Shown: one piece after another, positions 1,860 to 8,501 of the stretch | Layout: each line of letters begins with the position of its first letter | Position numbering within the stretch: the stretch's first letter is position 1 | DNA from: Actinomycetota bacterium | GTDB lineage: Bacteria; Actinomycetota; Actinomycetes; S36-B12 | Reading direction: 5' to 3' | Length of the DNA stretch: 33,115 nucleotides | Assembly (NCBI GenBank): GCA_017856385.1 | Contig: JAFMFD010000017.1 | Coordinates: forward strand, 1 to 33,115 | Program-made: the position numbers and the translations under genes | Notes under the pieces: generated by a model | The model's database searches: none | Told to the model about the DNA's origin: nothing | What the model saw: only the letters and a program-made list of their open reading frames with translations

Positions 1860-2732
1860 TCAGCTGGTGATGTCCTTGCGGTCGAACCGCAGCACGGCGA
1901 TGACCACCAGGAGCGTGAACAGCACCACGCTGTAGGACGCGCCGATCGCCATCTGCTCCCAGGCGATGGTCGGGGCGAGCGCATCGACCCACGCGTTGCC
2001 GTAGTCGGTCGGAAGCAGCCGTCGCAGGTCGCCGAGCGCCTCGATCGCGTCGAGGATGTTGGCGACGATGACGATGACGACGGCGGCGCCCACGGCACCC
2101 AGCGGAACATCGGTGAGCACGCTCATCAGGAACGCGATGCCCGCCGGGATCAGCATCATCAGCCCGATGTAGCCGGCGACGATGGCGAGGCGGTACGCCG
2201 ACTCGGCGGTGTCCCATGACCCGCCGAGCGGACTCGACAGTGGTGCGACGCCGAACGCGAGCGCGCCGATGATCCACGAGGCGAGCACGAGGATCGCCAG
2301 CGTGATCGCCGTGAGCAGGAGTCCGACGATCGCCTTCGCGCGCAGCAGTCGGCGCCGGGGCACGGGAGCGGCGAGCAGGTAGCGCAGGGTCGACCACGAT
2401 GCCTCGCTGGCCACGCTGTCGCCGAGGAACATCGCGGCGATGATCGTCAGCAGGAAGCCGGAGCCGAAGAACAGCATCGTCAGCGCGAAGTTCCACGCTC
2501 CCGAGGTGGCCAGGCCGACGAGGTCGAGGTCACCGTCGCCGAAGCCGCCTCCGCCGCTGGACGACGATGGGCCGAGGGTGACGGCGGCTACGACGATGAG
2601 CGGTAGGGCGATGGCCACGCCGAACGCGATCAGGGTGCGACGGCGGCGAAGCTGGCGCACCAGCTCCACGCGCACGGTGAGCGTGCGTCGCGGCTGGTAC
2701 CGGTGGGCGGTGTCGATCACCGGGGTGGTCAT
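1860..2732 (-). CDS. ABC-2 type transporter permease
   Basis: This 290-residue membrane protein has about six hydrophobic segments. The first (about 35-53) follows a cytoplasmic, arginine-rich N-terminus. A Ser/Gly-rich external loop follows it, and a long amphipathic stretch containing SEASWSTLRYLLAAPVPRRR lies after the second helix. That serine/threonine-leucine-arginine and PVPRRRLL pattern is typical of ABC-2 permeases, where it contacts the ATPase. Its ATG overlaps the stop of the upstream ATPase-hydrolase fusion gene by 4 bases, so the two products are very likely subunits of one transporter. The substrate is unknown; ABC-2 systems are usually exporters. Confidence 0.85.
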   Translation of the reverse strand: MTTPVIDTAHRYQPRRTLTVRVELVRQLRRRRTLIAFGVAIALPLIVVAAVTLGPSSSSGGGGFGDGDLDLVGLATSGAWNFALTMLFFGSGFLLTIIAAMFLGDSVASEASWSTLRYLLAAPVPRRRLLRAKAIVGLLLTAITLAILVLASWIIGALAFGVAPLSSPLGGSWDTAESAYRLAIVAGYIGLMMLIPAGIAFLMSVLTDVPLGAVGAAVVIVIVANILDAIEALGDLRRLLPTDYGNAWVDALAPTIAWEQMAIGASYSVVLFTLLVVIAVLRFDRKDITS

Positions 2733-5293
2733 CCGGCGCCTCCTCGGGTCGTCACCTCATGGCCTACGCCGACAAGGTCGAGGAAGACGTCCTCCAGCCT
2801 CTTCTCGTGGTACTCGCCCAGCAGCGCCTCGACGGTGCCCTGGGCGATCACGCGGCCGGCACCCATGACGACGACCTCGCGACATGTCTGCTCGACCTCG
2901 CTGAGCAGGTGCGAGGAGACGATCACGGTGCGGCCGTCGGTGGCGTACGCCTTCATGACCTCGCGCATCTCCTTGATCTGCGGCGGGTCGAGGCCGTTGG
3001 TGGGCTCGTCGAGGATCAGCAGGTCGGGCAGGCCGAGCATGGCCTGTGCGATGCCCACGCGCTGGCGCATGCCCTGGCTGTACGTGCGCACCCTGCGATC
3101 GATCGCCGAGCCGAGTCCGGCGATGCTCAGGACGTCGTCCATGCGCGGATCGCCGGTGCGGCCGGAGGCGCGCCAGAACAGGTCGAGGTTCTGCCTCCCG
3201 GTCAGGTGCGGCAGCAGCCCCGGGCCCTCGATGAAGCAGCCCACCCGCGCGAGTGCCGCCGCGCCCGGGCGAACCCGCTCGCCGAAGATGCGAACCTCGC
3301 CGGAGGTCGGCGTGATCAGGCCCATCATCATCCGCATCGTTGTGCTCTTGCCTGCACCGTTGGGTCCGAGGAGTCCGAGGACGGTGCCCCGGGGCACGAC
3401 GAAGTCGACTCCGTCGACCGCACGCACTCCTCCGGGGTACTGCTTGACCAGTCCGGTGACGACGATTGGCTCGTCGTCGAGTCGCGCGGGATCGCCCGCT
3501 GCCCTGCGTCGTCGGCCGGTAAGGAGCAGGACGAGGGCGAGGATCGCGACGGCCCCGAGGGCGAGCAGCGGCCAGGTCCACACCGGCCGCGTTCCGCCGA
3601 CGGGCGTGCCGGTGACGGTCGGGACGACCACGGTCGGGTCGGCGAGGGCGATCGAGTAGACCGCGGGGCCTGCGGGCATCCGGTACGCCTGGTCGGTGGT
3701 CGTGAGCGTCAGGGCGATGCGCGAGCCCGCAGCGACGTCGGCGACAACGGCAGGCAGCTCGATCCCGACCTCGACGGGCTCGGGGCCGAGGGCGTCGAGG
3801 CGCACGGGTGCGACGAGGCCGGCCGGCAGCCGCGGGAGTCCGGCGCCGTCCAGGACGCGGACCGCTGCGAAGACGGTGGCGCCCTCGACGGGACGGTCCG
3901 CTGCGATGGTGATGCGGGCGCGCGGCGAGCCCACGATCGAGAGCGGTGCCACCAGGGGCTCGGAGACGAAGGTCGCGGTCTGCTGCTCGCCGCCCAGGGC
4001 CGTACCCACGCCGGCGAGCCCGAGCAGACCCCCCACGCCGCCCAGCCCCGGAACCGACGAGATCGCTGACGGCAGGCCGCCCGCTGGCGCGAGCACCTGC
4101 TGAGGCGGTCCGGCGAGGGCGGCCTCCTGGGTCGAGGTGCCCTGCAGGCCCGGGAACTGCGGCGCCGCGATGACGTCGAACGTGCCGGCTGCGCGGTCGC
4201 TGAGCGCCGAGCCCTCCGTCCGGGCGAACAGGAAGTCCGTGCTCACTGCCGGGCCGTCCGCGAGATGGTCACGGAACCAGTCGATGGTCAGGCTGCGCAG
4301 CTGGTCGGTCACGGCGTCCGGAGAGGCGAGGCCGCCGTCGTGGCCCCCGGCATGCCACACGACCTTGACCGGTGCATCCGGATGCGCCGCGCGGATCTGC
4401 TCGGCGTTGGCACTCACCTGGGCGAGCGGGAACAGCGAGTCGGCCTGGCCGCCGCCGAGCAGGGTCGGTGCGGTGATGCGGTCGGTGATGCTCATGGGTG
4501 ACGAGCGGCGCATGAGCGCGGCCCCGTCGGCGTCGACCGTGCCCGTCGTCGCCGCGCGCACGTACGCCGCGCACCACGCGTCGGTGAACCTGCCGCACTC
4601 GGTCACGTCGTCGCCGGGGCGCGGCGCTTGACCGGAGCTGAAGAACAGCCCGGACCACAGCGACTTGTACGCACCGAGGTCGTCGGAGTCGAGTGCCGAT
4701 TGGCCGAAGAGCGAGTCCTCGAGCGAGTTCCAGGTGATGTCGGCGGCGATCGCGTCCACGCGCGGGTCGTATCCGGCCGCCATCAGCGCGAGGGCGCCGC
4801 CGTACGACCCGCCCGCGATGCCCACGCGCGGGTCGTCGGGCGCATCGACGACGACCTCGGGCACGGTCGCCAGGTGGGAGATGAGCGCGGACGCGTCAGC
4901 CACCTCGAAGTCCGGGTCGTTCATTGAGATGTCGCCCGTCGATGCGCCGAACCCGCGAGCGGAGTAGGCGAGGACGACGAAGCCGGCCTCAGCGAAGGCC
5001 GTCGCGTCCTGCGCCACCGACGCCTTGCTCCCGCCGAACCCGTGGGCGAGCAGCAGTGCCGGGGCGCGCTGCTCGGGCGCAAGGCCGGGGGGCAGGTACA
5101 GATCGGCTTCGAGCTGCACCGGCGTGGGGTCGCTTGCCGAGGTCGCCGCCCCGGGGAGCGTGAGGGCCGTGGGAGTGACGGCAGGCGCAGCCGCCTGCCG
5201 GACGGCCAGTCCGGCTACGAGGACGACGGCGAGGACGCCGAGGGCGAGGACGATGACCCGGCGTCGCGTGAACCAGCGCCGGAGTCGTCCCAC
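2729..5293 (-). CDS. Fusion of secreted alpha/beta hydrolase (S15/CocE-like) with ABC transporter ATPase
   Basis: The 854-residue protein has two unrelated enzymes in one chain. Residues 1-32 are an arginine-rich start plus a membrane helix. Residues about 55-345 form an alpha/beta hydrolase with nucleophile elbow GGSYGG (Ser163), probable acid Asp285 (GGQADSLF) and His318 (HAGGHDGG). Residues about 350-560 look like the beta-sandwich that follows X-Pro dipeptidyl-peptidase/CocE hydrolases. A second helix lies at 574-592. The rest is a cytoplasmic ABC ATPase: Walker A GPNGAGKST (643-651), signature YSQGM (738-742), Walker B LLILDEP (758-764) and H-loop His795. Predicted topology therefore puts the hydrolase outside and the ATPase inside. 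The GTG at 5293 is the only start that keeps the first helix, and it lies 79 bases inside the preceding lipoprotein gene. The permease follows with an ATGA overlap. The fused architecture has been seen in actinobacterial annotations as far as I recall; substrate and reaction are unknown. Confidence 0.88.
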   Translation of the reverse strand: MGRLRRWFTRRRVIVLALGVLAVVLVAGLAVRQAAAPAVTPTALTLPGAATSASDPTPVQLEADLYLPPGLAPEQRAPALLLAHGFGGSKASVAQDATAFAEAGFVVLAYSARGFGASTGDISMNDPDFEVADASALISHLATVPEVVVDAPDDPRVGIAGGSYGGALALMAAGYDPRVDAIAADITWNSLEDSLFGQSALDSDDLGAYKSLWSGLFFSSGQAPRPGDDVTECGRFTDAWCAAYVRAATTGTVDADGAALMRRSSPMSITDRITAPTLLGGGQADSLFPLAQVSANAEQIRAAHPDAPVKVVWHAGGHDGGLASPDAVTDQLRSLTIDWFRDHLADGPAVSTDFLFARTEGSALSDRAAGTFDVIAAPQFPGLQGTSTQEAALAGPPQQVLAPAGGLPSAISSVPGLGGVGGLLGLAGVGTALGGEQQTATFVSEPLVAPLSIVGSPRARITIAADRPVEGATVFAAVRVLDGAGLPRLPAGLVAPVRLDALGPEPVEVGIELPAVVADVAAGSRIALTLTTTDQAYRMPAGPAVYSIALADPTVVVPTVTGTPVGGTRPVWTWPLLALGAVAILALVLLLTGRRRRAAGDPARLDDEPIVVTGLVKQYPGGVRAVDGVDFVVPRGTVLGLLGPNGAGKSTTMRMMMGLITPTSGEVRIFGERVRPGAAALARVGCFIEGPGLLPHLTGRQNLDLFWRASGRTGDPRMDDVLSIAGLGSAIDRRVRTYSQGMRQRVGIAQAMLGLPDLLILDEPTNGLDPPQIKEMREVMKAYATDGRTVIVSSHLLSEVEQTCREVVVMGAGRVIAQGTVEALLGEYHEKRLEDVFLDLVGVGHEVTTRGGAG

Positions 5294-6144
5294 CCTTGGA
5301 CTCTACGTCGGCGGCGCGAGCGCCGCACCAGCACGATGACCAGCGGCACCGCGATGAGCGCGGCCACGATGAGGAACGGCACGAGGAAGCCCAGTGCGGT
5401 GATCCCGAAGGCGATCAGGGTGAGGAAGGCGGACCAGCCGGTCTCCAGGCCGGACAGGAAGCCCGGCAGCTCGATGTCCGACACCACGGTCACGGGGAGC
5501 AGGGAGACGGTGACCGTCGACATCGCGACCTGGTTGGCCAGGTAGGCGCGCTGGGAGTTCAGCGAGTCCAGCTCAGCCTGTCGGGCCGACAGCTCGGCCT
5601 CGATGGCAACGATGTCCGCCACCTGCTGCGCCTCGGCGAGCAGCTCCGTCAGTCGCGCGATGCTGTCCTCGAGGACGGTGATGCGCGCGTCGAGGTCGAT
5701 GACCTGCATGGTGACGTCGCTCGCGGTGACCTCGAGGGAGTCGACGCTCCCGAGTGCGCTGACGTCCTCGAGGAAGGAGTCGAGGCCGTCGGCGGGCACC
5801 TGGACCGTCAAGGTCGCGCTGGCATTGCCCTCGGTTCCTGCGACCGTCTCGGAGACGATGACCCCCTTGGCGGACGCGGTGAGCGCGCGCACCTCCGCGA
5901 CGGCGGTGTCGACAGCATCCACGCGCAGCCAGAGCCAGGCCGTGCGGATGACCGAGCGATCCGCGACGGTCTTGGTGTCCATCGGGGCGCCCTCGGCCAT
6001 AGGCATCTCGGCGGTCATCGCCATGTCGGCGGACATCGCGCCGTCCCCCATGGCGTCCGAGCTCCCGGACCCACCGCAGCCGGCGAGCAGGATGCCTGCC
6101 GTCACCAGGCCGGCGACGGCCATCAGCCTGCGGGATCGTGACAT
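5215..6144 (-). CDS. DUF4349 family lipoprotein
   Basis: The ATG at 6144 is preceded by GAGGAGG (spacing about 5) and gives a lipoprotein signal with lipobox LLAGC (Cys23); the open frame extends further upstream but without such a signal. After the lipobox is a methionine-rich segment (residues 32-55, seven Met, including MAM and MPM). The DUF4349 domain follows (about 65-275): a beta-rich part, an SxxxLTVQVPADGLDSFL-type strand, a long coiled coil with repeated heptads (DLDARITVLEDSIARLTELL), and a C-terminal membrane helix followed by an arginine-rich and serine-rich tail. The role of DUF4349 proteins is not established; the domain resembles periplasmic or extracytoplasmic proteins anchored at both ends. 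Its last 79 bases overlap the start of the hydrolase-ATPase gene, which suggests coupled expression. Confidence 0.88.
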   Translation of the reverse strand: MSRSRRLMAVAGLVTAGILLAGCGGSGSSDAMGDGAMSADMAMTAEMPMAEGAPMDTKTVADRSVIRTAWLWLRVDAVDTAVAEVRALTASAKGVIVSETVAGTEGNASATLTVQVPADGLDSFLEDVSALGSVDSLEVTASDVTMQVIDLDARITVLEDSIARLTELLAEAQQVADIVAIEAELSARQAELDSLNSQRAYLANQVAMSTVTVSLLPVTVVSDIELPGFLSGLETGWSAFLTLIAFGITALGFLVPFLIVAALIAVPLVIVLVRRSRRRRRVQGWDDSGAGSRDAGSSSSPSASSPSSS

Positions 6145-6277
6145 GGTGCCTCCTCGGTGTGCTGCTGCGCAGGCAGCAGGACGAGCATGACTGGGACGCC
6201 TGCCTCCCGCCTGCTGTTTCGGCACGTTCGCAACGATTCTGCAACGGTCGATCGTGGGAGTCCTGCTGGTGAGCGGG

Positions 6278-8356
6278 TCACTCCACCAGGGTCACGAGGT
6301 GGAGCGTCTGGGTCGCGCGAGTGCAGGCCACGTAGATGTCGGCTCCGCGGGGGGCCTGGCGGGCGATGGCGTCGGGCTCGATGACGAACACGTGGTCGAA
6401 CTCCAGGCCCTTGGTCTCCCGGGCAGTGAGCACCGCAATGGGCGCGTCGACGGCGTCGTCCCCGCAGGCGAAGCGCGGGTCGGCGTCCGTGAGCCATGCC
6501 GCAAGGGCATCCGCATCCGCGTCGGGGATGACGACGCCGATGCGTCCGTCGTCCGACCGCGCGAGGATCGCCGGCACGAGGTCGGCGAGGCGCAGCTCGA
6601 GCTCCTCGGTCGGCGCGCCCTCGCGGATCGGATGCAGGATCGGGGCGTCGCCGCCGGCACTGGTCAGCAGCTCGGTCGCGGTGTCGGCCACCTGCCGTGT
6701 GATGCGGTAGGTCACGGTGAGCACGTGCACGTCGATGCGGTCGCCTGCCCACGCCAGGGCCTCGTGCCAGTCGCGGGCCCCGGCCGGGTGGGCCGCCTGC
6801 TGGAGATCGCCGACGACGGTCATCGACCGCCGTGAGCACCGTCGGGAGAGCGCACGCCAGGCCATGCGCGACAGCTCCTGCGCCTCGTCGACGACGACGT
6901 GCCCGTAGACCCACGAGCGGTCCTCGAGCGCACGCTCCGCGACCGTGGTCGTGGGGCGGTGCCGCGCGAAGGGATCCTCGACCCGCAGCTCCCCGTAGTC
7001 CGGGTCCTCGCGCTCGACCTCGGCGGTCGGCCGCACGAAGTCCCCGAGGCGGTCCGCGGCCTCGTCGAGCAGGGGGGCGTCGTCGACCGTCCAGGGTGAG
7101 CCGGGCGGACGGAGGAGCAGCTGCTGCTGCCGGGGGGAGAGCACGCCACGCGCTGCGCGGGCGAGGGTGTCGGCGTCGGTCAGCAGCAGCGAGACCAGTC
7201 GCTCCGGCGTGATCGGCAGCCACATGAGGTTCAGGGTGCGCCGGACGCTCGGCTCCTCGACGAGGTCGACCAGGGCGTCGAGCCGATGGTCCGGATCGCC
7301 CGGGTCCTCGCCCCGGCGGCGGACGCGATCGCGGCACAGGTGGTCAAGGGCCCGGCGCAGGAAGGGCTCGCGATTGGCGTGGAACGTGCCATTGCGCGGT
7401 ACGCCCTTGCGGGCGTCGGCGAGCTGGGCCGCGGTGATGGTCACGTCCGAGCCGTCGGACAGGCGGATGGTCACGTCGTGGTCGGGCACGCGGATGCGTG
7501 AGCGCACCGCATTGGCGATGACCGTGGCCATCGCAAGGTCGCCCTTGATCGCCGCGACCGCGGGTGCATCCGGTCGCGTGGCGGAGACGCCGGGGTAGAG
7601 CTGCCCCGGCGTCAGCAGCACCACGTCTGTCTCGCCCAGGCTCGGCAGCACCTGATCGATGTAGCGCAGGAACACGCTCGAGGGCCCGATGACGAGGACA
7701 CCGTCGCGTGCAAGTCGCTCCCGGTGCGTGTAGAGGAGCCATGCGGCGCGGTGCAGCGCCACGACGGTCTTGCCGGTGCCGGGCCCGCCCTGCACGACGG
7801 TCACCTGGTTGAGCGATGATCGGATGATGCGGTCCTGGTCGCCGGCGATCGTGGCGATGATGTCGCTCATCCGGCCATCGCGCGGTGCGTCGACCGCGCG
7901 CGCAGCGGCGTCGACGGCGATCACCGTCGGGTCGCTGAGGTCCTCGTCCTCCGTGTGCGTGACCGTGCGGTCGCGGGTGATGATGCGACGACGTCGGCGC
8001 AGGCCCATGGGATCGACCGTCGTTGCCTGGTAGAAGCCCGCGGCATTCGGGGCCCGCCAGTCGAGCAGGACGGGCTCGCCGTCCGCGTCGCGAAGGCCGA
8101 TGCGGCCGATGCGGTGCACGCGTCCGTCATCGTGGTCGACACGACCGAAGCACAGGCGCTGACGGGCCGCCTGCGCGCTGCGCGACTGCTGGGCGAGGGC
8201 GTCGAACAGAGCCTGCCGCTCGAGCAGGTCCTGGCCGGTGCCGGTCGCGGGAGCGGCGGCGATGGCGCGCACCCGCTGGGCGAGGGACTCCTCGAGGTCC
8301 GCGAGCAGGTGATAGGCGCGGTCGACGAATGCTTGCTCCTCGGCGACCGGCTCCAC
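6278..8356 (-). CDS. helD: HelD/HelR-like RNA polymerase-recycling ATPase (superfamily 1 helicase fold)
   Basis: The product (692 residues from the chosen start) is an SF1 UvrD/Rep-type ATPase. It has an N-terminal helical hairpin (EEQAFVDRAY and following heptads), Walker A GGPGTGKT (190-197), a VVVDEAQE motif II, and C-terminal motifs KGLEFDHVFV and YVACTRA. The DWRAP segment and the insertion between the helicase halves are typical of HelD, which binds RNA polymerase, removes stalled complexes and, in some actinobacteria (HelR), protects from rifampicin. The frame is open to a GTG at 8407 and has an ATG at 8377. I chose the GTG at 8354-8356 because GGGGAG stands 7 bases before it and homologues begin near the EEQAFVDRAY helix. 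The gene is divergent from the RmuC gene. No rifampicin-associated element was found upstream. Confidence 0.85.
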   Translation of the reverse strand: MEPVAEEQAFVDRAYHLLADLEESLAQRVRAIAAAPATGTGQDLLERQALFDALAQQSRSAQAARQRLCFGRVDHDDGRVHRIGRIGLRDADGEPVLLDWRAPNAAGFYQATTVDPMGLRRRRRIITRDRTVTHTEDEDLSDPTVIAVDAAARAVDAPRDGRMSDIIATIAGDQDRIIRSSLNQVTVVQGGPGTGKTVVALHRAAWLLYTHRERLARDGVLVIGPSSVFLRYIDQVLPSLGETDVVLLTPGQLYPGVSATRPDAPAVAAIKGDLAMATVIANAVRSRIRVPDHDVTIRLSDGSDVTITAAQLADARKGVPRNGTFHANREPFLRRALDHLCRDRVRRRGEDPGDPDHRLDALVDLVEEPSVRRTLNLMWLPITPERLVSLLLTDADTLARAARGVLSPRQQQLLLRPPGSPWTVDDAPLLDEAADRLGDFVRPTAEVEREDPDYGELRVEDPFARHRPTTTVAERALEDRSWVYGHVVVDEAQELSRMAWRALSRRCSRRSMTVVGDLQQAAHPAGARDWHEALAWAGDRIDVHVLTVTYRITRQVADTATELLTSAGGDAPILHPIREGAPTEELELRLADLVPAILARSDDGRIGVVIPDADADALAAWLTDADPRFACGDDAVDAPIAVLTARETKGLEFDHVFVIEPDAIARQAPRGADIYVACTRATQTLHLVTLVE

Positions 8357-8501
8357 GCACCCACTCCCCACGCTCATAAGGGGCCAAGAGTCTGCCACGC
8401 CTGCCACAGCACCCGAGGAGCAGGTGCCCCGTCGCTGCCGTCATGCTTCGCGACGTCGTGTCGTCACACCGATGTCAGGGGCTCCTGCGAGCATCAGGAT
8501 C

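Follow-up and report, generated by a model that had tools for sequence, protein, structure and literature searches.

The window, that is, the whole stretch of 33,115 nucleotides analyzed here, carries on its minus strand a gene in which a hydrolase is fused to an ABC ATPase and, directly downstream, a permease gene. The features of this region are as follows.

5215–6225, minus strand: DUF4349 gene, the end of which overlaps the start of the fused gene by 79 nt
2729–5293, minus strand: fused hydrolase-ABC ATPase gene, 854 aa, GTG start
5195–5266, minus strand: N-terminal hydrophobic helix (residues 10–33), a predicted export signal or signal anchor, with a lipobox in some homologues
4244–5173, minus strand: predicted extracytoplasmic alpha/beta hydrolase with cap (residues 41–350), S15/CocE/PaL-type
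4805–4807, minus strand: catalytic Ser163 in GGSYGG, present in 89/89 alignment rows
4571–4597, minus strand: Cys233 to Cys241 in the cap, the only Cys residues of the ectodomain, likely a disulfide, 89/89 rows
4439–4441, minus strand: catalytic Asp285, 89/89 rows
4340–4342, minus strand: catalytic His318, 89/89 rows
3599–4243, minus strand: jelly-roll (PepX_C-like) domain (residues 351–565)
3518–3577, minus strand: second TM helix (residues 573–592), inward positive side in 87/87 rows
2768–3469, minus strand: predicted cytoplasmic ABC ATPase domain (residues 609–842)
2729–2732, minus strand: ATGA stop/start overlap of the fused gene and the permease gene, kept in most homologues
1860–2732, minus strand: ABC-2 (type V-like) permease, 290 aa, 6 TM

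Composition and Conservation of the Fused Protein

The fused gene is a single unbroken open reading frame of 854 codons running from 5293 to 2729. Three Pfam families match one chain, each above its curated cut-off: Peptidase_S15 at residues 59–318 (84.7 bits against a cut-off of 23), PepX_C at residues 437–538 (28.1 against 22.5) and ABC_tran at residues 627–766 (103.9 against 25). Thus, the proposal of an earlier sequence-only reading that a hydrolase and a complete ABC ATPase share one polypeptide is borne out. Within the first 60 codons, the sole other in-frame start is at residue 59, past the signal segment; because its use would drop that segment, the GTG at 5293 is retained as the start codon. 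The AlphaFold model of the chain (mean pLDDT 81.7) consists of a helix, a two-domain ectodomain, a second helix and the ATPase. The jelly roll harbors a Gly-rich insert at residues ~405–437 (window ~3983–4081, minus strand), for which model confidence is low; this region comprises a conserved PxGGxPAxISxxPG segment and, after it, a Gly/Leu-rich stretch of varying length, and as a loop it might contact lipid or the permease.

Both active sites are intact throughout an alignment of 89 rows, two of which are the window's own protein and some of which are near-duplicates. Ser163, Asp285 and His318 are invariant (89/89), and the nucleophile lies in the GxSYxG motif typical of S15/CocE-type enzymes, so that the catalytic triad predicted by the sequence-only reading is confirmed, the Ser is retained in all homologues and a degenerate hydrolase is ruled out. 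The ATPase likewise retains Walker A Lys649, the signature SQG, Walker B Asp762/Glu763 and the H-loop His795 in every row (89/89), which is the full set of ABC ATPase motifs. Pairwise identity averages 0.66 over the first part of the hydrolase, 0.50 over the jelly roll and 0.76 over the ATPase.

The Partner Permease

The gene at 1860–2732 matches both ABC2_membrane_4 and ABC2_membrane_2 above the Pfam cut-offs, and its six TM helices accord with a type V assignment. In the structural model, a short helix at residues 20–29 and two helices ahead of TM6 (residues 231–239 and 247–252) correspond to the predicted N-terminal elbow and the re-entrant helices between TM5 and TM6, respectively, that are features of type V permeases.

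The permease is an obligate partner of the fusion in the sequences compared. Among 88 loci, three end at the fused gene; in each of the 85 informative loci, the next gene on the same strand is a homologue of the permease, with 44.9–100% identity to that of the window. The start codon is in the 4-bp overlap register in all but 8 of these 85 loci, and the arrangement of an adjacent permease encoded with such an overlap extends well beyond the window. Among 59 related genomes, the fusion is found in 27 and the permease in 26, the sole mismatch being G024, in which the fusion sits at a contig edge; none of the 59 has the permease without the fusion. More distant fused loci that were fetched also have the permease, and the gene pair, with an identical 4-bp overlap, is annotated in a RefSeq record for Tsukamurella as well.

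Distribution and Evolution of the Fusion

Searches of related genomes and of GTDB contigs yielded 88 different open chains of full or nearly full length, in agreement with the earlier statement that similar proteins exist in actinobacteria, and homologues of full length also occur in more distant members of the phylum. Holders include Nanopelagicales-type MAGs, Nonomuraea, Herbidospora, Planobispora, Sphaerisporangium and Streptomycetaceae, with genomes ranging from 1.3 Mb to more than 10 Mb. Among 394 genomes of the class, 115 give a match at E ≤ 1e-60, as do 34 among 396 of the phylum; these counts include a minority of ATPase-only or hydrolase-only matches. Because dozens of independent genomes, together with the separate RefSeq annotation of Tsukamurella, contain the fusion, a frameshift, misassembly or other sequencing artefact joining two genes is ruled out. 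A phage origin is rejected, since none of 17 pattern matches in viral contigs was confirmed, and so is a defence system, since PADLOC matches concerned the ATPase part only. Several public MAGs titled as Bifidobacterium breve group (L045, L048 and L049) have Nanopelagicales-type sequences, and their titles look mislabelled.

Relatives of the components also occur unfused, as ATPase-permease pairs that stand alone and as separate secreted hydrolases. Of the 76 rows in an ATPase tree, 52 are fused proteins; 51 of the 52 form one supported clade (98/80) that groups by lineage, and the remaining fused protein is weakly placed among the stand-alone pairs. The fusion is therefore old and mostly vertically inherited, and the tree is compatible with a single origin. 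Neither fission nor loss of either active site was seen in the fused clade, and no hydrolase was detected near the stand-alone ATPase-permease pairs. The gene neighbourhoods compared contain no conserved biosynthetic neighbours and no hint of the substrate.

Topology and Linkers

An arrangement with the hydrolase outside and the ATPase inside, as proposed in the sequence-only reading, is supported by three signatures in the sequences: charge bias, lipoboxes and a Cys pair. Helix 2 has an excess of Lys/Arg on the ATPase side in all 87 rows, and helix 1 has more Lys/Arg before than after it in 81 of 87. In L026, L028 and L029, helix 1 ends in a lipobox-like LGAC or LSAC, and in other homologues it looks cleavable, which suggests that the N-terminal segment serves for export and is not a functional helix under conservation. 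Consequently, although a membrane helix is indeed found on each side of the hydrolase, as that reading had it, only the second appears to be a constant membrane anchor. The ectodomain contains exactly two Cys residues at fixed positions (89/89), and Cys233 and Cys241 likely form a disulfide, as would be expected outside the cytoplasm. The signals thus place the two domains on opposite sides of the membrane, not on the same side.

The two linkers that flank the second helix behave differently. The outer tether, from P558 of the jelly roll to TM2, is 13–18 residues long in all rows, and such a short, constant tether would keep the hydrolase near the membrane at a fixed reach. The inner linker, from TM2 to the ATPase, measures 14–168 residues, and its long forms are of low complexity; in L107, L111, L112 and other Nonomuraea loci, it exceeds 100 residues and is partly repeated. 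Because of this variability and low complexity, a rigid push through the shared chain appears impossible, and any coupling must run via the permease or the substrate. The combination of a constant outer and a variable inner linker favours a hydrolase parked at the outer mouth of the transporter over a lever.

Structural Relatives and Known Systems

In fold comparisons, the modelled ectodomain matches the lipase PaL along its whole length (Z 33.2, rmsd 3.0 over 437 residues, 23% identity), followed by cocaine esterase (Z 27), X-Pro dipeptidyl aminopeptidase (25.7) and alpha-amino-acid ester hydrolases (25), and a profile search also places PaL first (E 1.3e-28). By profile and by modelled fold, the hydrolase is thus nearest to PaL rather than to X-Pro peptidases, a match that does not fix its function. 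Although Peptidase_S15 and PepX_C score above cut-off, the S15 label is misleading as to chemistry, because the closest proteins of solved structure are a lipase and other esterases, not X-Pro peptidases. PaL (PDB 8yzn/8yzo) and the CocE, PepX and alpha-amino-acid ester hydrolase entries share the two-domain alpha/beta plus jelly-roll fold, and PaL also shares the GxSYG nucleophile motif, but these entries have no fused ATPase or TM helix.

The permease model is nearest to NosY (Z 17.3), followed by ABCG-type drug/sterol transporters and a mycobacterial efflux pump; the matches span Z 15–17. For the ATPase, ABCA lipid transporters and the mycobacterial pump Rv1218c are among the closest proteins of solved structure. 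The closest relatives of the ATPase and of the permease are stand-alone ABC-2 pairs of Actinomycetota (L132, L133, L135 and L136), which differ in that their chains contain no hydrolase and that none was detected in their vicinity.

The closest working model is YbbAP-TesA of E. coli, an ABC system for which extraction of hydrophobic molecules and their delivery to a bound esterase have been proposed (PMC12646458). Both systems pair an ABC transporter with an extracytoplasmic serine esterase/lipase. However, the YbbAP permease is of type VII (MacB-like) and carries large periplasmic domains, and TesA is a separate protein of the GDSL family, whereas in the module of the window the permease is a 6-TM protein of the ABC-2/type V-like kind and the hydrolase, of S15/CocE/PaL-type, shares a chain with the ATPase. 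The module is thus not a member of that system and may be regarded by analogy as its type V counterpart.

The domains are already present separately in domain databases, and the fusion is apparently undescribed: no description of this domain order was found in the literature searched, which mostly lay outside subscription papers, so that absence is not proven. NCBI names the Tsukamurella homologue simply "alpha/beta fold hydrolase", and systems of this kind are easily overlooked under such a name.

A Proposed Model for Coupled Transport and Hydrolysis

In the model that we prefer, two fused chains and two permeases would assemble into a type V (ABC-2) transporter. The hydrolase would be exported by way of the N-terminus and kept on the outer face by TM2, with the ATPase acting inside. 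The substrate of the transporter would be a hydrophobic ester, thioester or amide of lipid-like or peptide-like character, which would be extracted or exported and then, as it emerges, cleaved by the tethered hydrolase of lipase/esterase type; cleavage would make the step one-way and release the product from the membrane. We give an about even chance to such coupling of extraction or export to hydrolysis by the two-gene machine. The direction of transport may differ, because type V systems include importers too (PMC8386196). More tentatively, and with a probability somewhat short of even, the family may represent an undescribed, phylum-wide class of type V ABC machine whose motor subunit bears the external enzyme, so that membrane extraction and hydrolysis of a lipid-like substrate become a single ATP-driven reaction. 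Actinomycetota would then have arrived independently, and for a second time, at the principle of YbbAP-TesA.

The passing of substrates from an ABC transporter to an outside hydrolase has been described only recently, for YbbAP-TesA of E. coli. A phylum-wide single-chain fusion that keeps both active sites argues strongly, on genetic grounds, for the two activities belonging together, and the presence of so compact a system in cultivable actinomycetes makes the coupling of transport to hydrolysis directly testable with single-residue mutants.

The NosY-like fold of the permease points to a different possibility, namely that no substrate crosses the membrane and that ATP turnover and permease movement switch or position the external hydrolase. 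NosY is the nearest solved fold, NosF is among the ATPase matches (34% identity), and NosDFY has an external protein partner, as given in the titles of its PDB entries (7o0y and 7znq). Action on external partners also has a precedent in FtsEX, which regulates peptidoglycan hydrolases (PMC7668044, PMC11491553). However, drug and lipid transporters match the permease at almost the same Z as NosY, and NosD is a separate protein and not a hydrolase of this fold. The module also differs from NosDFY in that its external domain is a fused hydrolase and that it has no conserved third gene. Moreover, an inner linker of 14–168 residues bars rigid force via the chain and leaves the permease as the only route of coupling. 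We consider such mechanotransmission unlikely.

The nearest one-chain design is that of the prodrug-activating proteins ZmaM, EdeA and PamJ, in which an extracytoplasmic serine hydrolase of peptidase type is likewise joined in one chain to an ABC half-transporter with its cytoplasmic ATPase (PMC9889268, PMC4234257), and by analogy an inactive precursor of a dedicated metabolite might be exported and trimmed outside. These proteins differ from the fused protein in that their peptidase belongs to the beta-lactamase family (PF00144/S12), the TM domain lies within the chain and the genes are linked to biosynthetic clusters; the window's protein has no PF00144 match, and its permease is a separate gene. 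In addition, the family is old, follows taxonomy and occurs in 1.3-Mb genomes without conserved biosynthetic neighbours. The last two features make a dedicated secreted natural product less likely, and maturation of this type is rather improbable.

A toxic amphiphile, such as an antibiotic or a lysolipid, might instead be pumped out and destroyed outside by the hydrolase for detoxification or self-protection. The best-scoring models for the ATPase are those of lantibiotic-protection proteins and DrrA, but these matches are far below the curated cut-offs, and lineage-following inheritance together with strong constraint on the hydrolase suggests a fixed, perhaps endogenous, substrate; detoxification is accordingly given a low probability. 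An equally low probability attaches to the transporter being a mere membrane anchor or expression partner for an unrelated surface hydrolase, since, although long flexible inner linkers make tight mechanical coupling via the chain unnecessary and one TM helix could anchor the hydrolase just as well, the parts exist separately, yet the fused clade shows neither fission nor active-site loss.

Flanking Genes

A larger conserved operon is rejected, because the flanking genes change with lineage and no other gene travels with the pair. In Streptosporangiaceae, the flanks are copper genes, an ATPase regulator and a terpene cyclase-like gene, and in the window they are DUF4349 and HelD. Among the loci compared, only the close relative L039 has a homologue of the DUF4349 gene in the same position, and this gene is no general partner. 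The gene at 6278–8407 on the minus strand of the window encodes a homologue of HelD/HelR-type RNA polymerase recycling ATPases that does not reach the curated cut-offs set for the named subfamilies. L039 and the more distant L162 likewise have a HelD-like gene upstream of their fused gene.
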